Below, in pieces: positions 8,091-39,179 of a stretch of 64,000 nt of DNA. A program made the position numbers and the translations under genes. Under the pieces are notes generated by a model. It saw nothing but the letters and a program-made list of their open reading frames with translations. It was not told where the DNA came from and ran no database searches. The number at the start of each line of letters is the position of its first letter. The stretch's first letter is position 1. Source of the DNA: a virus; IMG/VR virus record IMGVR_UViG_3300009503_001360, positions 1 through 64,000 of that record; one strand, given 5' to 3'.

Positions 8091-8462
8091 ATGAGCAATC
8101 TTTTAATTTCTTTACTCTTCTACTTTGTAGAATGCTTCGGAGAAGAGGGCATCTTCAGACTAGTTTTGATGAGCTTTTTGATGTCTCTTGGTGTTCCCGC
8201 ACTTCTCACCGTTCTGATCGCTGCAGTTTTGTACGGACTTTCTCATTTTATTTTGTTCAAGCTCAAGATGGTTTTAGCAAGCGCTGTTTTAGGAATAGTT
8301 CTTGGACTGATCTTTCTACTTTTGTCTCATAACTTAGCACTTGCTTATTTCGTATGCAGCATAGTCCACTTCTTCGCAGGGGTTTGTTCTATTCAGATAG
8401 GTTTCACGCACTCACAGATGAGAGAGGCTTTCTACGATGTCAACGGCAGCAGTGAACAATAG
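8091..8462 (+). CDS. CPBP-family (Abi/Rce1-like) intramembrane protease homologue
   Basis: 123-residue integral membrane protein with about four hydrophobic segments. The three CPBP signatures are present and well spaced: GEEGIFR (Glu18, Glu19, Arg23; the EExxxR motif), LYGLSHF (His52; the F/YxxxH motif) and SIVHFFAG (His93; the third-motif histidine). GIVLGLIFLLLSHNLALAYF between them matches the usual GLxLGxLYxxTGxL segment. Known family members cleave prenylated proteins or take part in bacteriocin immunity and membrane-protein processing. A strong AAGGAGG (8080-8086) precedes the ATG. It lies next to lysis-type genes, so membrane disruption or processing of a lysis protein is conceivable. 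It is shorter than usual (about 200), having only the catalytic core. Confidence 0.68.
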   Translation: MSNLLISLLFYFVECFGEEGIFRLVLMSFLMSLGVPALLTVLIAAVLYGLSHFILFKLKMVLASAVLGIVLGLIFLLLSHNLALAYFVCSIVHFFAGVCSIQIGFTHSQMREAFYDVNGSSEQ

Positions 8463-8895
8463 CAGTAAGAAAGTTTTCTCGGTTAAAGAGATCATAGACT
8501 CATTAAATAACGGGGGCCGACTTGATCTCTCGATGCTTTCTGAGGAGCAGATTCAGTCAGCAATTAGCTCTATTGAGAAGACGAAATCGAAAGCTGATAT
8601 TCAGAGCGCTTTATGGGAGATAGAAAAGCTGCTGCTCACAGTATTACTTTCTACGAAAGCCGCTGAGAGCCGATTTCAGTCACTTGAGAAAGAAGTAAAA
8701 GAAATGATGGTTCTTCTTAGAGGAGACCCGCTTTCTAACAGTCAGCAAGTTCAAGAAGGGCTGTTAGGAAGAATTAGAACATTAGAAAGCGACTTCGGGA
8801 GAGCGAAATCTGCAGTTCGATATCTAAGCTGGCTATTAGTGGGTACTTTAGGGTGGATTGTTCGAGAGCTCTTGAGCAAGATTCTTCATTTTTAG
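8437..8895 (+). CDS. Coiled-coil protein with C-terminal membrane anchor (XhlA-like lysis candidate)
   Basis: 152 residues. The first 120 are helical with coiled-coil heptads, for example LLGRIRTLESDFGRAKSAVR. A single hydrophobic segment, LSWLLVGTLGWIVREL, follows near the C-terminus. This design resembles XhlA/haemolysin-type phage lysis accessory proteins. The gene overlaps the upstream membrane-protein gene by 26 bases. The closeness to amidase and CPBP genes supports a membrane or lysis role, which is inference. Confidence 0.6.
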   Translation: MSTAAVNNSSKKVFSVKEIIDSLNNGGRLDLSMLSEEQIQSAISSIEKTKSKADIQSALWEIEKLLLTVLLSTKAAESRFQSLEKEVKEMMVLLRGDPLSNSQQVQEGLLGRIRTLESDFGRAKSAVRYLSWLLVGTLGWIVRELLSKILHF

Positions 8896-8911
8896 AGGTT
8901 AGAAGCAGAGC

Positions 8912-9466
8912 ATGAGTGAAGATTATAACTTAATTCACCAGACTGAAGCTCCGCTAGATACAACTGGAACGACGGAGCTCTTATTTGCTATTTTCGATAC
9001 GACAGGGAGTCCCGTGACGGGGAAGACTCAAGCTGATTTTACTATCTTAACTGCTTCTCCAGGGACTGGATATCCTTCTCCAACAGTAGTAATTTCTGAA
9101 GTGGGTGATGGAATTTATAGAGCAACTCTTACATTTAGTACGAGCTCTGGCTGGAGTGTTCCGAAGTCTTATTTTATCCGACTCACTTGCGCAGGCACGA
9201 CGTTAGACTATAGATGTAATCTGATTCTATCACCTCTGCTCTCTAAGCTAAATAGAACTTTAGGACTAGAGAATGAAAATCAGTATATAGATCAGATGAC
9301 TTGGCATACTCAGTTCAATAAGCTTACTAGTGCGAGGATCAGAGTTTATTCAAACTCCACTGATGTAGGAACTGATAATAACGTGATTGCGACGTATGAC
9401 GTTAATATTTCGTATGACTCTGTGACTGGCAGGATGACGTCATATAAAGTAACTCGAGTGAGCTAA
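8912..9466 (+). CDS. Hypothetical phage structural protein with Ig-like N-terminus
   Basis: 184 residues. The first 105 look like a beta-sandwich, with FAIFDTTGSPVTG, then DGIYRATLTF. The last 70 contain GLENENQYIDQMTW and SARIRVYSNS, a combination seen in uncharacterised proteins of many environmental phages. No signal peptide. The ATG follows a GAGG-rich stretch. Probably part of the virion. Exact role unknown. Confidence 0.65.
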   Translation: MSEDYNLIHQTEAPLDTTGTTELLFAIFDTTGSPVTGKTQADFTILTASPGTGYPSPTVVISEVGDGIYRATLTFSTSSGWSVPKSYFIRLTCAGTTLDYRCNLILSPLLSKLNRTLGLENENQYIDQMTWHTQFNKLTSARIRVYSNSTDVGTDNNVIATYDVNISYDSVTGRMTSYKVTRVS

Positions 9467-9469
9467 AAC

Positions 9470-9679
9470 ATGGGAAGAGCTCAAGAGCATTGGAATTCAA
9501 AGATTTTTTGCCCAAAGTGCCGGCAAGAAATGATCAAAGTTTGGGATCAACAGTATGGTTTTGGGATTCTTTGTGAGCTCTGCAGGATTTTGATCTGGGA
9601 TTCTGACACTTTGGAGCCGTACTTGGAAGCGACATTATTCATAGATCCCCAGCAAGAAATAAGAGCTCCTTCTCGGTAG
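9470..9679 (+). CDS. Small zinc-ribbon protein
   Basis: 69 residues with CPKC near residue 14 and CELC near residue 36, a four-cysteine zinc-binding ribbon. It starts 3 bases after the preceding stop. No further domain is visible. It precedes the terminase pair, but a link to packaging is only positional. Confidence 0.6.
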   Translation: MGRAQEHWNSKIFCPKCRQEMIKVWDQQYGFGILCELCRILIWDSDTLEPYLEATLFIDPQQEIRAPSR

Positions 9680-9714
9680 AGTTGCTTTTCTACTGCAAAG
9701 GACTACTTTGAGCT

Positions 9715-10608
9715 TTGTCAGGAAGCACTCGGTTCACGGTTATTACAGACTATTTAGGCGTCTCTGGTTTAGAGAGATATCAAGATGAAACACGCTATTG
9801 TAGATACTTAGTACTCGGGATAGACCCGGGTTTAGGGATTGGAGGCCACGCAACTGGCATAGAAGGAGTCTCTCTACGAGACGGGACTCAACTTTTAGAA
9901 TTTCGTTCTAACTCGACTTCACCAAGATCCGTAGTTGAAAAAGTTTTAACTTCAATATTTTTAGATCCCAGTTTTGAAACTGTCTTAGTTGTTATTGAAT
10001 CTAATACAATTGGAAAAGACTTGATTTCTAGATATCTAGAACTCCCGGAGTTCTGGGAGTCGAAAAAGATTTCTCTCAAACTTCCTCCTTTATATCAGAG
10101 TTTTAAGAAAGATCGACAGCCAATATACGGATTTGAAAGCTCGGCCGCTAATAAACAGATGCTAATTGCAGAAGTCCGAGAGCTGATTAAGCAAGATCCG
10201 GAGGTGATTAAAAGTCATCGTCTGGTGAATGAGCTTTTAGGCTTTCAAATTCTCCCTGGAGGAAAGCTCGGGGCTAAGCACGGATCAGCTCGAACTGATG
10301 ATCTAGTAATTGCTTACGCTTTGGCTTTGAAAGGGAGACAATACTATTTTCTCCATAGTCCGGATCCAGCCGTGCTGAGAGCGCTGGATTTTCCAGCTGC
10401 TACGGCGTCAGCTTCCGAAGCGAGTTTGCTTCCTTATTTGGGAAGAATACACTACTCTGCAAGCGAAGAGCCTTTGAGAGTTTTTGATCTTGAAAGGGCT
10501 CGGCTGAAAGAAGAAATTTGGAAAGCGATAAGAGCGGGTCAGAACCCTCTTGAGCTGAGAAAAGCTTTAGAAGATCTTAAGCCAGAAGAGAGAAGTATTG
10601 CTGAGTGA
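9715..10608 (+). CDS. Large terminase, nuclease half (gp17 C-terminal domain) as separate gene
   Basis: RNase H-fold nuclease that cuts concatemeric DNA during packaging. Acidic metal ligands are GIDPGLG (Asp37), VVIESN (Glu95) and TDDLVIAYALAL (about Asp195-Asp196). Between them are features of the gp17 nuclease domain: NTIGKDLISRYL after the Glu, AANKQMLIAEVRELIK, and an ELLGFQ segment before the final Asp pair. Nothing like a Walker motif precedes it, so the ATPase half is missing from this polypeptide. The last 80 residues are an extra charged helical tail. The start is TTG. The gene overlaps the ATPase gene by four bases (GTGA). A RuvC-like resolvase is a less likely alternative, given the motif order and the neighbour. 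Confidence 0.82.
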   Translation: MSGSTRFTVITDYLGVSGLERYQDETRYCRYLVLGIDPGLGIGGHATGIEGVSLRDGTQLLEFRSNSTSPRSVVEKVLTSIFLDPSFETVLVVIESNTIGKDLISRYLELPEFWESKKISLKLPPLYQSFKKDRQPIYGFESSAANKQMLIAEVRELIKQDPEVIKSHRLVNELLGFQILPGGKLGAKHGSARTDDLVIAYALALKGRQYYFLHSPDPAVLRALDFPAATASASEASLLPYLGRIHYSASEEPLRVFDLERARLKEEIWKAIRAGQNPLELRKALEDLKPEERSIAE

Positions 10609-11540
10609 TAGAAAATCTCTCAAGAGAAGAAATTATTGCAAGAGTTCTCAGGCTCCAGAAGTTGCCAGAGGGCTTTGAAGAGTGGTTCTCTTATGCTAGA
10701 GTTGTTCACCCATCAAAGGGACTAATAGCTCCTACGTTTTATCCGAAGTTTAAAGAAATTGTCGAAGCTTTAGTCGAAAAACATTATGTAATTATCTTAA
10801 AATCTAGGCAGTGTGGTGTCTCGACTCTTCTTTCGCTCTTCTCAATCTATGCTGCTTCGCTTTTCCCTGGCTGGAGTGCAGGAGTAATTTCTAGAAGGCG
10901 AGAAGACGCAGTTTCTTTTTTAGAAAAAGGAAGGATTGCAATTCAATATCTGCCTCTTTGGCTGAGGCCCAAGATCTCAACGTGGAATAAGCTTAGCTTG
11001 ACTTTTTCTCATGCTTCAAAGATCTTGACTTCGCCTCCCTCGAAAGATGCATTTAGGGGAGAAACACTTTCTTTGTTAGTGATTGATGAAGCTGCTGCTT
11101 GCCGTAGAATAGATGAAGTTTATACTGCAGCTTATTTAACTCTCTCAAAGAATTTTTCTTCTTTGCAAGAAGCTTCATCAAGTAGGCCAAAAATGCCCTT
11201 CGGGATAGTTATTATCTCCACTGGCGCAGTTTTAGATAATCCTTCTGCGCAATTCTTCTTTGATATGTGGGATAGAGCAATGATGGGAGCTAATAATTTT
11301 GTTCCTATCAAAATTCATTGGTCTGACGTAGGTTATACTCCAGAGTGGAAGATGGAACAAGCTAAAGCTTTAGGAGAAGATCCAGATAAAATTATGACGG
11401 AGCTCGAGTGCGGATTTGTTATAGCAAGGCAAGACGCGATGGTTTTTCCTCCAGACGTCTTAAGAAAAATTCAAACTCAAATTGCTAGAGCAGATCGTGT
11501 TCCTTATGAAAGATGGCAAGCTCAGAAAGTGGGAGTCTAA
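10605..11540 (+). CDS. Large terminase, ATPase half (gp17 N-terminal domain) as separate gene
   Basis: Motor ATPase that pumps DNA into the prohead through the portal. It has a deviant terminase-type Walker A, LKSRQCGVST (residues 65-74), where the lysine sits early (Lys66), as in lambda gpA. Walker B is LLVIDEAA (about 156-163) and the coupling motif is IIISTGA-like, near residue 200. VISRRREDAVSF matches the adenine-binding/Q-motif region seen in gp17 relatives. The 311 residues end where the nuclease domain should begin. The nuclease is encoded immediately upstream instead. The GTG start overlaps the preceding stop. The two halves presumably assemble into one motor. Confidence 0.85.
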   Translation: MIENLSREEIIARVLRLQKLPEGFEEWFSYARVVHPSKGLIAPTFYPKFKEIVEALVEKHYVIILKSRQCGVSTLLSLFSIYAASLFPGWSAGVISRRREDAVSFLEKGRIAIQYLPLWLRPKISTWNKLSLTFSHASKILTSPPSKDAFRGETLSLLVIDEAAACRRIDEVYTAAYLTLSKNFSSLQEASSSRPKMPFGIVIISTGAVLDNPSAQFFFDMWDRAMMGANNFVPIKIHWSDVGYTPEWKMEQAKALGEDPDKIMTELECGFVIARQDAMVFPPDVLRKIQTQIARADRVPYERWQAQKVGV

Positions 11541-11543
11541 ACG

Positions 11544-12983
11544 GTGCCAGAAGATACTCTTGTTCAGCTTTATCAAGAACCGATTCATGATTCTAAAGTC
11601 TCAGTTTTAGTCCCAAGTTTGACGCTTTACTTTGAGCCTCTATCTGGATCCGGAAAAGAAGAATCAATAACGGTCTTCGGCCAGTCATCTTTAGCATCAG
11701 CTTTACTCTGGAGTAGCTGGGGCGCTCCATTAGCTTTAGTTGCTAAGCAGCAGTCTCATTATGTTGAAAGATATCTCCAAGCTTTGAGTATGTTAGCTTT
11801 CTCTTCTAGAGGAGGCTATCTTCTTTTGAGAGAACTTCCACATTTTTTTAAGCAGAATACTCTGGGCTGCTTAGTTGGAGCTTTTTTAATAGGCGGCGAT
11901 CTAGAGGTCTCAGCGATCTTAGCTCAGAGACAAGCTGGCAAGTATGTCACGAGAGTTATTCTTCATTTCCCGGTTGTCAAACAAGCTCAATACGACGAGG
12001 GCGGGCTTACGGGGGAGCTTGAGATCCGAGACGTAGAGATGTCAGTGATGTTTCAAGGCTTATTCAAGACTCCTTCAAGATCTCCAGCTACGTTTAAGCC
12101 GGCTGGATCTCCAATTTCTGACTACTATCGATTAGTTTGTGTTGAGTCGAGTCTATTTTCTTCTCTTTGGTATAAGCCAGCTGTAGTGACAACTGCTGAA
12201 ACTGCTGCTTTACAAAAAATACTCAGAAGCTTAGCAGATGGGTTTAGCGGCGCATTACAATCAGAAATTACAGTTCCTATTCGGTTTTTTAAGAGTATAT
12301 TTTTCCCTCAGCAGGCTCGAAGGCTTGATGTTGTAACAGATGCTTTAGTTGAGACTGCGCTTTCTAAAGGGACTAAAGACTTTCTGCTTGCTGGTAAGTT
12401 TTCAGCGATTTCTTTTGGAACAGAAAAAGGCTTCGGCCTTTTTAAGCTTAAAGACGTTGAAGGGCTTTTAGCAGATGAGAAGAATCAAGAAGCTTTAGAT
12501 ACGCAGATCCCAGCTATATCTCCAGGAAAGATGAGTGTCTCGGCAGATAAGACTGCTATTCCAGGGACAAAATCTTATCAAGAAGGCAAAGATGCTCTAG
12601 CAGGGCCGTCTAGATTCCCAATCTTCTTTACTCGTAGCGCTGTCAAAGTTTTAGAGTACAGAGAGATTTTTGCTCAAATATCGCCAGATTTTGAAAAAAC
12701 TTCGAGTTCATTCTTTATTCTCAGACTAGAGGCTTCTCAAGCTGCTCGGCTTACTCCAGGGCGAGTACTCCACTTTATTATTTTGCCAAGAATGCTTTAT
12801 GTTAAGCTGTTTATAGTTTCTGCTGCTGTTTTATATTACAAAGTTACAGAATCTCCTATTGGAGAGATGGAGGTCATAGGGCTTGAGATCAAAAGAGAGC
12901 TGCTATCAGAGGTAGTAGATTACGAGACACTCGAGTCGATTTCTAAAGCTTTTGAGAAAGAGCTAACTGAAGAAGGGAGCTAA
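11544..12983 (+). CDS. Hypothetical large protein, probably virion
   Basis: 479 residues, mixed alpha/beta, no signal peptide. Hydrophobic stretches such as LGCLVGAFLIGG and LFIVSAAVLYY are short and probably core strands, not membrane spans. No family recognised. It begins 3 bases after the terminase gene and is followed after 3 bases by another large unknown gene, so the two are probably made together. Location between packaging and head genes suggests a structural or assembly role, but nothing in the sequence proves this. Confidence 0.6.
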   Translation: MPEDTLVQLYQEPIHDSKVSVLVPSLTLYFEPLSGSGKEESITVFGQSSLASALLWSSWGAPLALVAKQQSHYVERYLQALSMLAFSSRGGYLLLRELPHFFKQNTLGCLVGAFLIGGDLEVSAILAQRQAGKYVTRVILHFPVVKQAQYDEGGLTGELEIRDVEMSVMFQGLFKTPSRSPATFKPAGSPISDYYRLVCVESSLFSSLWYKPAVVTTAETAALQKILRSLADGFSGALQSEITVPIRFFKSIFFPQQARRLDVVTDALVETALSKGTKDFLLAGKFSAISFGTEKGFGLFKLKDVEGLLADEKNQEALDTQIPAISPGKMSVSADKTAIPGTKSYQEGKDALAGPSRFPIFFTRSAVKVLEYREIFAQISPDFEKTSSSFFILRLEASQAARLTPGRVLHFIILPRMLYVKLFIVSAAVLYYKVTESPIGEMEVIGLEIKRELLSEVVDYETLESISKAFEKELTEEGS

Positions 12984-12986
12984 AAG

Positions 12987-14471
12987 ATGCCAGGTCTTAC
13001 GGGAACTACTTCTGAGTTTTATCTCATAAACAAGGGAAAGAAATCTTCTCCCTCTGTTCAAGAAGATCAAACTACTGGGATCTTAGTCCACAAAACGATG
13101 GCAGACGAGATCATTTCGTCGATCCCTATGCCAGGCGGGTTCGAGTTCGGGAAGCTCCCAAAGATTAAGAAATCTGCTAACACTCTTCTAGACCGAGCAA
13201 AACTTTTATACATCTATTATTTGCTGCAATCTGCTCAAAGCGTTCAGCTAAACGTGTTGAATCAATGGATGAATTGGGCAAACTTCTCGATCTCCGGGAT
13301 AGGGAAAGTGATGTTTTCGACTAATCCTTTATTTTATATTTCTGAAGCAAAAAGATTAGCAGCTCTGAGCTCTAAAGGGGGAGAGTCTAGAAAAGAACCC
13401 TGGGAAGATCTCCAGCTCTGGGATAGAGAGTCAGGATTGAATATATCTGCTTTGGCTGCTGCTTTCTTAGTAGGAAAAGCGGGCAATTCTTTCAAAGCTT
13501 TCCCGTATGTTCCTCTTATGATTGCTTCAGTTGACTCAATGTCGGTTGAAGCGACAAATAAGTCACAGTTTACTTTCGATTTCTCAGACTATTTTCCTGA
13601 TGAATTTCAATTCTTAGCTATGTCGATTCAGGGCGGGAGGTTTATGAATGCTGCAGCAGAAGTCTTGAGTTTTCTAGTTAAAGCTCCTTTTTATCCCGTC
13701 GAAGCGATTGCTGGAAAAGCTGGAGAGGGACTGGTTAAGAGCGTTGGAGAAGCAGTTAAAAGGATTGTTAGAGATCCAGCTCAAATATTCACTGTGAGGG
13801 GTCCTCGTCTCTGGCGAGGTTCTTCAGAGCCTAACTATTCAATAAGCGTAACAGTTAGAATTCCGTATGTTTTAGGATTTGATGCTGATTCTCAAACAGA
13901 TCTCGTCCCTCCAGTCGCTCTTTTAGACCCTTCGAGTCGATCACAGTATTCGGAAGTAATACAACAAGCTATTTACCGAACTATAATATTACCTTTTAGA
14001 GCTCTTCTCAAATATCAGCTTTATGGAGCTTATCAGGGATTCTTGCTCTATATTGCTAGACCGGGCTCAGTCGGGGTTTCGGGTGCATTTACTAACTTAG
14101 CCGAGCTTTTCGAGCCTAAGACATCAGGCTTTTCAAATTCAGGGCTTCTTCTTTATGGGATTCCTTCTAGTCCTATCACTGTAGACTTGCAAACGAATGA
14201 TACTGCTGGGTATGCGCCGCAGAGCTTTAAGATCTCTATTCAAGGCTCACAGGCTTGGTATGCTTATCTGCCAGACTTGTCTCAGATGGCTTCAGCTTTA
14301 GCATCAGAAGAAGCTAGAAAACAATACGAAGCAGATCTTATGAAACTGCAAAAAGAAGCTCAAGCGCCTGAGAAAGTAGAAGAAGAGAAACCCAAGCAAG
14401 GAGAGCAAGAATATCCCGACCTCAGTGGAGTAAACAAAGTGCAAACTGGCGAAATTGGGAAAGCGAAATGA
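12987..14471 (+). CDS. Hypothetical large protein, probably virion
   Basis: 494 residues, unrecognised. The main body has aromatic-rich segments, for example WRGSSEPNYSISVTVRIPYV and LLYGIPSSPITVDLQ. The last 70 residues are charged (EEARKQYEADLMKLQKEA, then Pro/Glu/Lys-rich). It overlaps the next gene by ATGA. A membrane- or baseplate-associated structural role is possible, but no specific evidence was found. Confidence 0.6.
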   Translation: MPGLTGTTSEFYLINKGKKSSPSVQEDQTTGILVHKTMADEIISSIPMPGGFEFGKLPKIKKSANTLLDRAKLLYIYYLLQSAQSVQLNVLNQWMNWANFSISGIGKVMFSTNPLFYISEAKRLAALSSKGGESRKEPWEDLQLWDRESGLNISALAAAFLVGKAGNSFKAFPYVPLMIASVDSMSVEATNKSQFTFDFSDYFPDEFQFLAMSIQGGRFMNAAAEVLSFLVKAPFYPVEAIAGKAGEGLVKSVGEAVKRIVRDPAQIFTVRGPRLWRGSSEPNYSISVTVRIPYVLGFDADSQTDLVPPVALLDPSSRSQYSEVIQQAIYRTIILPFRALLKYQLYGAYQGFLLYIARPGSVGVSGAFTNLAELFEPKTSGFSNSGLLLYGIPSSPITVDLQTNDTAGYAPQSFKISIQGSQAWYAYLPDLSQMASALASEEARKQYEADLMKLQKEAQAPEKVEEEKPKQGEQEYPDLSGVNKVQTGEIGKAK

Positions 14472-18979: not shown

Positions 18980-19924
18980 ATGGTAGAGCTCGTTTGCTCG
19001 GTTTGCGGCAAGACTTATAGACGTAGGCCGAGTCATGTAGCAGGGAGCAAGTACTGTTCTGTTGAGTGCAAAAGAAAGGGCCTCTCAAAGATCATAACTC
19101 GAATCTGCCAGTACTGTGGAAAAGAGTACTCTGGGACTGCTCACGAGCTCAGCAGAAATCGTTTAAAATTCTGCTCAGCTCGTTGCGCGGCTCTTGCTCG
19201 TAAAGATCAAAGAGTCATAACTAGGGTTTGTCAGCATTGTGGGAAAGAATACTCTGGCTCTCCGTACCAGATGAAATTTCGCAAGAAGTTCTGTTCAGTA
19301 GAGTGCATGACTGCAGCACTCTCAAAGCCCAGAGTGTGCCAGCGATGCGGACAGCTGCTAGAAAAGACTAGAGGAAAGAAGATCAGGCGAAAATATTGCG
19401 ATTCGTGTCGGCGAGAAGTTCTTAAGGAAAACGGAAAACGAAATGGAGCTTTAGCTCATGCTAAAGCACTCAATCTCCGTCGTACTCGAATATGCCGTCG
19501 ATGCGGAAAAGAGTTTGTGCTTCCTCCTTTAGTCCAATGCCACAAGCGCTATTGTGATGACTGCCGTCGGATAGTTCACCGAGAGAACGGCGCTAAAGGA
19601 AATCTGGTTCTTGCTAAGAGAGGCAAAAGAACTTCAGCTGAGCTTCAAGCTAGGGAGTTCTTAGCATCTCTTGGGCTCCAGTTCGACGAGCAAGTGCAGA
19701 TCGGTCCTTACGTCGCTGACTTTGTATTAAAAGATCAAAAAACGATAATCGAAGTCGACGGCGAGTACTGGCATTCTAGACAAGATGCAAAAGAGGCCGA
19801 TACAGAAAAAGAGCAGTATTTAAGCTCTCTGGGCTATCGAGTCTTTCGTCTAGCTCAGAGCGCTAATCGTCCCTACGTCTTGACAGAATCGAGCAAACGA
19901 GCTCTGCTTGAAGCTTTAGCTTAA
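18980..19924 (+). mobile_element. Free-standing homing endonuclease: zinc-finger array plus Vsr/DUF559-like nuclease
   Basis: 314 residues in two parts. Residues 1-200 hold five cysteine zinc-finger modules of the form CxxC...CxxxC or CxxC...CxxC (CSVCGKTY, CQYCGKEY, CQHCGKEY, CQRCGQLL, CRRCGKEF). The first three are visibly related repeats. The last 100 residues are a PD-(D/E)xK/Vsr-type nuclease, with TSAELQAREFL, VADFVL, IIEVDGEYWH and then LSSLGYRVFRL. Fingers fused to such a nuclease right behind a conserved capsid gene are typical of a selfish homing endonuclease that cuts the same gene in endonuclease-free relatives. It is a coding gene starting at ATG 18980, 19 bases after the capsid stop. 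Confidence 0.78.
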
Positions 19925-36118: not shown

Positions 36119-37024
36119 TTGCAAAAGTTAGTTGTCATAGGAAATGCGTTGTCGGGACTTACTTGGCTTTGGAGAGTAAGTCGCCAGTACCCTGATGTTC
36201 TTAAATCTAGAAAAATTCAAGTCTTCGGAAAGCCATTTGTTCCGACAACTTATGCGCCTCTGGTCTCAGATGGCGTCTTTCAATTTCTTCTGAGCCAAGG
36301 GCTCGATTCTGTTAAGCTTCGCAAGCTCAAATATACCTATTGGGACGGCAAGCAGTTTATATCGGCTAAAGAAGGGAAAGAAGCATATCTAAAGAAGTTT
36401 CCTTCAAACGCTGATACTTCTCTCCGTGGCTCGGCAGTGGTTAAAAGAGAAGGTGACTTCATCTTAGCTGACGATTCTTTGTTCGTAGCATTAGAGAGAT
36501 TCCGGAGCGAATTAAAAGACTGTTTCAACGCGGAGTTTATCCCTAGAGTTCTTCTATCAAAAGCTGACTGGGAAGAGATCACTGAGGACTCAGACTTGAT
36601 AGTCTGGGCGACTGCTATTCGGAGCTTATTTGAATGGTTATGTGATGAAGATCGTTGGTTTAAAGAAATTTTAGACGAAATTGATAGAGCATTACTTCCT
36701 ATAACAGTTGTGGGAACTGAAGGGCTGGAGAGCGAATGTTTGAGCCTCTTCGAGACCGAGTATGATTATATTTACGATGCTAGAGAAGCTTCTCGGTATT
36801 ATCGATTCTGGCCGCAGTATAAAGCAGCTGAAATCAGGCCCGAGACGCAATCGCTTTCTGATAAAGTTTTGTTTAAAGGAGACAAAAATTTATTCGAGCT
36901 CTGGCTGAAACCTTTTATATGGAGAGATAAGCGAGTGATCCCATTCGCTCGTGGAGCGTTAATCGCTCAAATAGTATGGCGAGATCTTTTTGAAATTGAT
37001 CTCGGGCTCTACGAAGGAGGATAA
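36119..37024 (+). CDS. FAD-dependent oxidoreductase (amine oxidase / UDP-galactopyranose mutase-like)
   Basis: 301 residues. The N-terminus KLVVIGNALSGLTWLWRV is a Rossmann dinucleotide-binding turn of the GxGLSGLT type used by amine oxidases and UDP-galactopyranose mutases, here with GN in place of GA. The end (PFARGALIAQIVWRDLFE) fits the second FAD-contact region. A segment YDYIYDAREASRYYRFWP resembles the central part of the mutase-like family. TTG start with GAGGAGG (36109-36115). It is followed directly by the ThyX-like gene, another FAD enzyme family, and the two are probably co-translated. Substrate unknown. A role in base or sugar modification is inference. Confidence 0.65.
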   Translation: MQKLVVIGNALSGLTWLWRVSRQYPDVLKSRKIQVFGKPFVPTTYAPLVSDGVFQFLLSQGLDSVKLRKLKYTYWDGKQFISAKEGKEAYLKKFPSNADTSLRGSAVVKREGDFILADDSLFVALERFRSELKDCFNAEFIPRVLLSKADWEEITEDSDLIVWATAIRSLFEWLCDEDRWFKEILDEIDRALLPITVVGTEGLESECLSLFETEYDYIYDAREASRYYRFWPQYKAAEIRPETQSLSDKVLFKGDKNLFELWLKPFIWRDKRVIPFARGALIAQIVWRDLFEIDLGLYEGG

Positions 37025-37025
37025 C

Positions 37026-39179
37026 TTGAGAGAAGATATTAAAAAAGAGAGACATAAGCTTGGATCTTTGCCCTTCGGAGACTGGCTAGATGAGAAATTA
37101 AAGCCGACTGAAGTTCGCTTAATACGAGGGGCTTCGAAACTCGAGCTAGAGTGCATCTCAAGGCCAGAAGATACTTTTTATCGAGGCATGTTTGATATGG
37201 CTCTAGCAACTTGGGGGACTAATGAATTCCCTAATAAGTGGAATCAGTCAGACCCTCTTACTCGATTCAAAGTGATCTGGGACGTTTTACACGGGAAAGT
37301 AGGAGGACATGCTTTAGAATCGCCTTCTTGGTCATTTATTGTTAGAGGAATGCCCAGGCACGGGTTCTGTGTAGCTCCAGGGACTCTGATTCAGCTTGCT
37401 TCTGGCGCAGTAAAGCCCATTGAAGAAGTCACTAGAGGAGAGAAAGTTCTAACTGTAGAGGGCTTTCAAGCAGTTGAAGAAACTCTATATAGAGATGTTA
37501 AAGAAGAGCCGATGATAAAAATATCTCTTTTTGGAGTTCCCCAAGCTCCGATCTTTGTGACTTCTGATCACTCAGTTCTGGCTTTCCGTCCGAAGCTTAG
37601 AACGATCGAAGAGCTGATATCTGCTGATCAGAGTGATTTCGACTGGATTCCAGCAAAAGATATTCGACCGGGCGATTATCTAGCTCAGCGACTCCCAGAT
37701 TTTCCCGAAGAAGATATTCAGATTGACTTCTCAAGATACGAATCGCCGACAATTGGAAGAAATCAATACGGAATAACACATCACGCAGTTAGATTTGATG
37801 ATAAAGATCGTCTGGGAAAGCGGACGATCGATGAAGATCTGTGCAGAATAATTGGATGGTATCTAGCTGAAGGATGGGTGCCTAAAACTTCCCGTAAGAG
37901 ACAACGCGTTTGTTTCTCTCTAGGGCGCTCGGATTTATATGCTCAAAAGTTAAAAGACTCCGTCTTAAAAGTTTTCCCTTCAGACGCTAGATTCCCTGTA
38001 AATGCTTTGACTAAAAAGCTCTCTCATGGGTTTGAGATCCAAAATAACGCTTTTGCGAAGTTCTTAAGTGAACAATTCGGACGGACTGAGATAGAGAAAC
38101 GCCTCCCTTCTTGGGTATATTCTTTGAAGAAGCCTCTAGCTAAAGTTCTTTTAGAAGCATATCTCGAAGGCGATGGCTGGAAGTCTAAACACGGATGGAA
38201 AGCTTGCAGCATTTCACTCGAACTTATCTTGGGAATGAAGACTCTGGCGGAAAAGCTTGGTTTATCTACTCGGTTTAGAATACTCCGAGCTCAAGCGTCA
38301 AAGAGATATAGAAACCCGCATGATCAAGGTTGGTTAATATTGCATGATACTACTGAAGATCTAAATGAAGTACCCAATCTTTATCCAGCGCAAAAGAAAG
38401 TAATTCGAGTCGGAGACTTCTTGCTTCGTCTTGTTAGGAAGACTGAACAAGTCTTATATACTGGGCGAGTTTTTAATTTAGAAGTTCCAAGAGGGAATAG
38501 CTATACAACTCTCGGCGCGACGATTCATAACTGCCAAGATCGTACTTCGCGAGTGGGTAGTGTTTTTGGGAGTTCTGGATGTAGGGACAATGCGAGAGGA
38601 CTCGATTGCGATTTTATTTTATACCCCAGCTTGTATGATGATCCAGAGATTCGAAAGAAGCTTGAGAAACATTTTAAAGAAGTTCGAAAGCTGTATCATT
38701 GGCTAATCACAAAGAAGCTGCTCTCGTACCAAGATGCAAGAAGCATACTCCCGATGTCATATCATCATCCCTATACAGTTCAGAGAAATCTTCGAGCTTG
38801 GTTAGCATTTTTCTCTGGAAGAGCCTGTTTCGGCGAAGAATTCGCTATAAATTCTATGTCGTGGCGACTCCGTCAGTTTATGATCGATGAGGGATGGTAT
38901 ATGATAGCAGATGTGATGAGACCAAGATGCGATTATGCTAAGAAATGCTTATCGACGAACCCTTATTATGCAGCACTTTTCCAGGGCTGTGGAAGATGGC
39001 CTATGCCAGAAGAAAGTAAAGATGCTGCATCTTTTCCTTTCCCAAATACTAGTAAGAGGATCCAAGAAGAATGTCTGGGGTTTAAAATCCCTGCGCCAAA
39101 CGAGTATCTAGACATTACTCGAGATGAAGCAGGATTTGAGAAAATAAGCAAGAAAGAAAAAGAAGTTTTCTGCAGTTAA
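37026..39179 (+). CDS. ThyX-like flavin-dependent thymidylate synthase homologue containing an intein
   Basis: The precursor is 717 residues. After removal of a 388-residue intein, a 329-residue protein remains. In the spliced form, GHALESPSWSFIVRGMPRHGF joins CQDRTSRVGSVFGSS, matching the ThyX pattern GH.S..EHxxFTF.i.GxSR...HQ..RHR..S. Later, ARSILPMSYHH and NLRAWLAFFSGRAC...AINSMSWRLRQF match the second conserved ThyX block. The signature RHRxxS appears as TSRVGS, so it is altered. Authentic ThyX makes dTMP from dUMP with FAD. This divergent copy could have another pyrimidine substrate. The start is TTG 37026, five bases after AAGGAGG (37014-37020). The longer frame at 36990 lacks such a site. 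Confidence 0.72.
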   Translation: MREDIKKERHKLGSLPFGDWLDEKLKPTEVRLIRGASKLELECISRPEDTFYRGMFDMALATWGTNEFPNKWNQSDPLTRFKVIWDVLHGKVGGHALESPSWSFIVRGMPRHGFCVAPGTLIQLASGAVKPIEEVTRGEKVLTVEGFQAVEETLYRDVKEEPMIKISLFGVPQAPIFVTSDHSVLAFRPKLRTIEELISADQSDFDWIPAKDIRPGDYLAQRLPDFPEEDIQIDFSRYESPTIGRNQYGITHHAVRFDDKDRLGKRTIDEDLCRIIGWYLAEGWVPKTSRKRQRVCFSLGRSDLYAQKLKDSVLKVFPSDARFPVNALTKKLSHGFEIQNNAFAKFLSEQFGRTEIEKRLPSWVYSLKKPLAKVLLEAYLEGDGWKSKHGWKACSISLELILGMKTLAEKLGLSTRFRILRAQASKRYRNPHDQGWLILHDTTEDLNEVPNLYPAQKKVIRVGDFLLRLVRKTEQVLYTGRVFNLEVPRGNSYTTLGATIHNCQDRTSRVGSVFGSSGCRDNARGLDCDFILYPSLYDDPEIRKKLEKHFKEVRKLYHWLITKKLLSYQDARSILPMSYHHPYTVQRNLRAWLAFFSGRACFGEEFAINSMSWRLRQFMIDEGWYMIADVMRPRCDYAKKCLSTNPYYAALFQGCGRWPMPEESKDAASFPFPNTSKRIQEECLGFKIPAPNEYLDITRDEAGFEKISKKEKEVFCS
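37368..38531 (+). mobile_element. Intein with LAGLIDADG homing endonuclease inside the ThyX-like gene
   Basis: 388-residue intein. First residue Cys in CVAPGTLIQLASGAV (splicing block A). VTSDHSVLAF supplies the block B T/SxxH. CRIIGWYLAEGW and LLEAYLEGDGW are the two LAGLIDADG helices. FNLEVPRGNSYTTLG and ATIHN at the end are blocks F and G. The next residue is Cys+1. All splicing residues and both endonuclease aspartate/glutamate positions are present, so both activities look intact. It enters just beside the substrate-binding signature of the host protein, as inteins usually do. Confidence 0.9.

Follow-up and report, generated by a model that had tools for sequence, protein, structure and literature searches.

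The viral record IMGVR_UViG_3300009503_001360 (73,042 bp) is a fragment of a T4-superfamily phage genome, and it is incomplete, with one ORF running off the contig end. The window, that is, the whole stretch of DNA analysed here, comprises the first 64,000 bases of this record. Genes for the large terminase subunit (TerL) were found inside the virion gene cluster, between the tail sheath and head maturation protease genes. A T4-type portal (3.7e-38), a major head protein and a tail tube are also encoded around them, which gives the locus a head/tail gene setting of the T4 type. The features of the terminase locus are as follows.

9715 to 10608, plus strand: stand-alone TerL nuclease gene, 297 aa, TTG start, TGA stop; RNase H-fold domain at about residues 31–215, then about 80 C-terminal residues
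9823 to 9825, plus strand: nuclease motif I, Asp37 (LGIDPG), aligned with T4 gp17 D401; invariant in 54 sequences
9997 to 9999, plus strand: nuclease motif II, Glu95 (VVIESNTIG), aligned with T4 gp17 E458; invariant in 54 sequences
10297 to 10302, plus strand: nuclease motif III, Asp195-Asp196 (RTDDLVIAYAL), aligned with T4 gp17 D541-D542; D196 invariant, D195 nearly so
10602 to 10608, plus strand: nuclease/ATPase gene junction; TGA (10602–10604) in the ATPase frame, then GTGA (10605–10608), the ATPase start over the nuclease stop
10605 to 11540, plus strand: stand-alone TerL ATPase gene, 311 aa, GTG start, TAA stop; ends at the normal interdomain hinge
10803 to 10826, plus strand: Walker-A-like P-loop SRQCGVST, placed by alignments; Val at the position of the lysine in T4 SRQLGKTT
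11073 to 11096, plus strand: Walker B and catalytic Glu, LLVIDEAA (D161, E162); D161/E162 invariant in 27 sequences
11214 to 11225, plus strand: ATPase coupling motif ISTG (S205, T206), aligned with T4 TTP

The nuclease and ATPase genes share four nucleotides (GTGA, 10605–10608), and the initial annotation, which had described separate genes, nuclease then ATPase, with a four-base overlap, was exact in its coordinates. The nuclease frame closes with TGA at 10606–10608, and the stop-to-stop ORF of the ATPase frame opens at 10605. Based on codon usage, the annotated frame scores highest for both ORFs. Since there are stops in both frames, a fused nuclease–ATPase product is ruled out. A frameshift fusion of the two ORFs was also rejected, given the TGA directly before the ATPase start and the lack of a slippery heptamer. 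By inspection, no intein fragment lies at the new ends of either gene, as had been stated initially, and trans-splicing of the halves by a split intein was discarded because the ATPase tail and the 30-residue leader of the nuclease are too short or carry no intein motifs. A six-frame search with the TerL profile described below revealed no remnants of the missing halves beside either gene, and neither gene encodes the domain of the other. Together the two proteins measure 608 aa, against 604–631 aa for the single-chain TerLs of the closest clade, so little is missing from the pair. The overlap suggests coupled production of the two proteins, and the genes are probably translationally coupled.

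T4-type TerL is a single polypeptide with the ATPase at its N-terminus; here there are two ORFs, the nuclease first. The initial annotation had spoken of a reversed domain order, and this is correct for the order of the genes. It does not apply to the order of residues in one chain, as two polypeptides are encoded. For the same reason, the reversal need not change the machine.

A TerL profile was built from ten full-length T4-type TerLs, with the window sequences left out, and it confirmed the gp17-type identities that had been assigned to both proteins. It matched the nuclease ORF with E=3.8e-15 over residues 34–205, nearly the whole nuclease domain. The alignment of 54 nuclease sequences contains six invariant columns, D37, E95, G100 and D196 among them. 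The catalytic residues first proposed (Asp37, Glu95 and Asp195/196) were all placed correctly, and the alignment refines them to the invariant acids D37, E95 and D196, with D195 nearly invariant. The triad of the T4 gp17 nuclease is D401/E458/D542 (PMC3012670), and the window protein has the same RNase H fold with an Asp-Glu-Asp triad. The AlphaFold model of the nuclease (pLDDT 72) matched eleven PDB structures at E<=0.001, all of them TerL nucleases, the best being those of T4 gp17, G20c, RB49 and P74-26. Single-sequence searches gave less: no Pfam family at E<=1, a weak PHROG match (phrog_24361 'terminase', 0.022) and eleven phage records by tblastn, of which the best was an uncultured 595-kb phage (E=4e-4), where the matched ORF is a full TerL. 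Comparison of the C-terminal tail with the C-termini of single-chain TerLs (1–19% of shuffles reach the score) is suggestive only of possible homology. By profile, motif and fold, the product of 9715–10608 is a complete T4-type TerL nuclease domain. Without a Pfam match, such a protein would be labelled hypothetical in annotation.

The same profile matched the ATPase ORF with E=3.8e-46 over residues 29–272. In addition, Pfam Terminase_6N was found above its cut-off, phrog_5989 (terminase large subunit) matched with 6.6e-24, and the sequence matched T4 gp17 in the PDB with 4e-13. The AlphaFold model (pLDDT 84) matched the fold of the T4 gp17 ATPase domain with E=1e-19. The N-terminus resembles the start of single-chain TerLs in the closest clade. 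The two motifs first named for it, LKSRQCGVST and LLVIDEAA, were placed by alignment as the P-loop and Walker B, and with the coupling motif they belong to an ASCE ATPase with the Walker B Asp-Glu pair. Profile, motif and fold all identify the product of 10605–11540 as a complete ATPase of the gp17 type. The canonical P-loop lysine is absent from it. It is also absent from close single-chain relatives, whose P-loops read SRQLGIST, SRQIGMST and ARQMGIST, so its loss is a trait of the clade and is not diagnostic of lost function. It should be noted that this T4-type clade, which includes our loci L015, L095–L099 and L119–L122, lacks the lysine as a whole (SRQxG[VIM]ST) and keeps the preceding Arg-Gln.

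To place the pair among its relatives, ATPase, nuclease and portal alignments were scanned against IMG/VR and GTDB contigs, and GenBank phages were added; the survey is a sample. At least 196 TerL ORFs with both domains were found, at least 133 of them non-redundant after removal of those >=90% identical. As the initial annotation had said of normal terminases, the ATPase precedes the nuclease in a single frame (196 of 196 TerL ORFs among the matches listed). The search for relatives with the same split, which it had proposed, yielded no second instance of nuclease-first order among these at least 196 listed ORFs. The exceptions to an uninterrupted TerL frame were contig-end truncations, the intron-bearing AR9 gene and loci L181, L203 and L208, where the frame is broken, apparently by a frameshift or an interruption, and the order is still canonical. 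The nearest ATPases among the matches listed are about 35–38% identical to that of the window, with 37–38% for the closest, and occur in single-chain TerLs, so the phage is without a close relative in these collections. No close relative came up either when IMG/VR was scanned with single proteins of the window (ATPase, nuclease or DNA polymerase). In the domain trees, both halves lie on long branches, and the placement of the nuclease has weak support (52–53%). We infer a common origin of the two halves in one TerL, which goes beyond what these trees prove. In two of the related loci, TnpB-like transposon-associated ORFs were noticed by eye directly upstream of the terminase gene (L015:564–1643 and L099:3514–4791), and L015 also has a TnpA-like ORF (by eye).

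The window TerL can be compared with several known systems. It is like T4 gp17 (Terminase_6N, PF03237, plus an RNase H-fold nuclease) in both domains, their motifs and folds, and in the nearby portal, sheath, protease and capsid genes. It differs in being two polypeptides with the nuclease gene first and in having Val for the P-loop lysine. The closest ATPases among the matches listed, those of the IMG/VR loci named above, nevertheless belong to single-chain TerLs of 604–631 aa, ATPase then nuclease. Two genes also make up the large terminase of Arthrobacter cluster AY phages (BillyTP, BlueShadow and RadFad) (PMC11920828, PMC12820723), where, as in the window, the ATPase and nuclease genes follow each other and overlap. 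However, their order is canonical: in BillyTP, the ATPase gene (600–1679) precedes and overlaps the nuclease gene (1663–2259). The T4-type nuclease and ATPase profiles had no match in the BillyTP terminase locus (L106), which indicates that cluster AY has a different TerL family. The natural occurrence of a two-gene TerL in these phages implies that splitting is compatible with viability. In Bacillus phage AR9/PBS1 (L006), the TerL coding sequence is also interrupted and the nuclease is weakly similar to that of the window, but the annotation gives this TerL as a single CDS of five joined exons, with the domains in canonical order. No report of a nuclease-first TerL or of a T4-type split TerL was found in the open-licence literature. 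A split TerL as such is therefore already known, in canonical order, from cluster AY, whereas the nuclease-first order is without precedent found in that literature.

Published work on the T4 motor bears directly on such a split. Translocation by gp17 is ascribed to its ATPase and nuclease domains together, and the complementary surface between the two exceeds 1000 square angstroms (PMC3012670, PMC9958956). The hinge between them is considered essential for translocation in reviews of the motor. When gp17 is cut at the linker, ATPase and nuclease activities are retained and translocation is abolished; the separated domains are enzymatically active, and packaging is lost (PMC3012670, PMC9958956). 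Mutants of the nuclease site still package linear DNA (PMC3012670).

Based on the above results, we consider it probable that the locus encodes a T4-type TerL made of two polypeptides, in which an ancestral TerL was broken at the hinge and its halves, now in opposite gene order, reassemble non-covalently. From these data we infer the co-assembly of the motor, its stoichiometry and function, and its evolutionary route, and we suggest the following scheme. The ancestor would have had an ordinary TerL (ATPase, hinge, nuclease), which was broken at the hinge; the halves then came to lie in opposite gene order, possibly by a tandem duplication, after which the first ATPase half and the last nuclease half were lost. 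Coupled translation of the overlapping genes would help balance the amounts of nuclease and ATPase, which would reassemble non-covalently via the inherited ATPase–nuclease interface. The ATPase ring would dock on the gp20-type portal and pump DNA, and the nuclease would perform the initiating and terminating cuts. Given the effect of the linker cut in T4 gp17, non-covalent reassembly is not trivial, and set against that result the natural split makes the window TerL a testable exception. The TTG start and poorly placed ribosome-binding site of the nuclease gene count against this two-polypeptide model. In its broader form, a T4-type motor that lacks a covalent ATPase–nuclease link, may have an independent nuclease:ATPase ratio and arose by permuting the halves of one gene, we give the proposal an even chance.

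The reassembled motor has to be weighed against other readings of the same pair. One of them, which we regard as unlikely, is that the ATPase ring alone pumps DNA, its function having moved towards motors of the phi29 type, and that the free nuclease is recruited only for the initiation and headful-termination cuts, with no stoichiometric part in the motor. The very separation of the genes speaks for it, as do the packaging of linear DNA by the T4 nuclease-site mutants and a weak match of the ATPase model to the phi28 gp11 packaging motor. Set against these are the joint role of both domains in T4 translocation, the gene overlap with the coupled production it suggests, and the membership of both the nuclease and ATPase domains in the T4-type family. 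It could also be asked whether the pair has only relic or accessory status, with a normal full-length TerL in the part of the genome that the contig lacks. The contig of 73 kb is indeed a fragment. However, the catalytic residues are intact in both proteins, the pair is embedded in the virion gene cluster, and no second TerL nuclease, ATPase or full-length TerL was found elsewhere in the 73,042-bp record, so that the full-length terminase which the initial annotation had named as a refuting find is absent as far as this fragment reaches; we hold this reading to be very improbable.

Equally improbable, in our estimation, is an artefact of assembly or binning, in which misjoined metagenomic contigs produced the nuclease-first order. 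The arrangement is known from a single metagenomic contig with no second instance found. A single misjoin would be insufficient, because the nuclease begins and the ATPase ends cleanly at a domain boundary and another gene follows the ATPase; two errors would be needed at those boundaries, leaving clean start and stop codons. Moreover, there are no suspicious repeats at 8400–13000, and the G+C content and codon usage of the pair match those of its neighbours. The least credible reading, to which we assign next to no weight, takes the first protein for a RuvC-type Holliday-junction resolvase or another RNase H-fold nuclease and supposes that the motor nuclease has been lost. Its first motif, LGIDPGLG, is RuvC-like, and the RNase H fold is common to TerL nucleases, but neither Pfam (at E<=1) nor NCBIfam gave a RuvC match, the TerL-nuclease profile match takes in the E-x-N-x-x-G and DDLV motifs, and every PDB match at the above threshold was a TerL nuclease. 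A RuvC identity, which the initial annotation had named as an outcome that would overturn it, is thus largely refuted by Pfam, NCBIfam and the fold matches.

As a naturally split T4-type enzyme, the window TerL offers a direct test of the need for covalent coupling, of the forces that hold the domains together and of the freedom of nuclease stoichiometry. Among two-gene TerLs it is an independent second case, and in this analysis the first to have the nuclease gene in front.

Several other genes of the window were also noted. Neither Pfam nor PHROG matched the products (479 and 494 aa) of two large genes downstream of the ATPase gene (11544–14471), and a tblastn search of GenBank phages with the 479-aa protein was likewise negative. 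The major head protein gene is immediately followed by a free-standing homing-type endonuclease (18980–19924) that combines zinc-finger repeats with a nuclease domain of the Vsr/DUF559 kind. A thymidylate synthase-like protein of the ThyA/pyrimidine hydroxymethylase type (1609–2382; phrog_160, 3.4e-9) adjoins the portal gene, and at 36990–39179 a ThyX-type thymidylate synthase (Thy1, 1.5e-9) is broken by an insertion that resembles an intein and shows Hint and LAGLIDADG signals. The phage appears to have both ThyA-like and ThyX-like genes.
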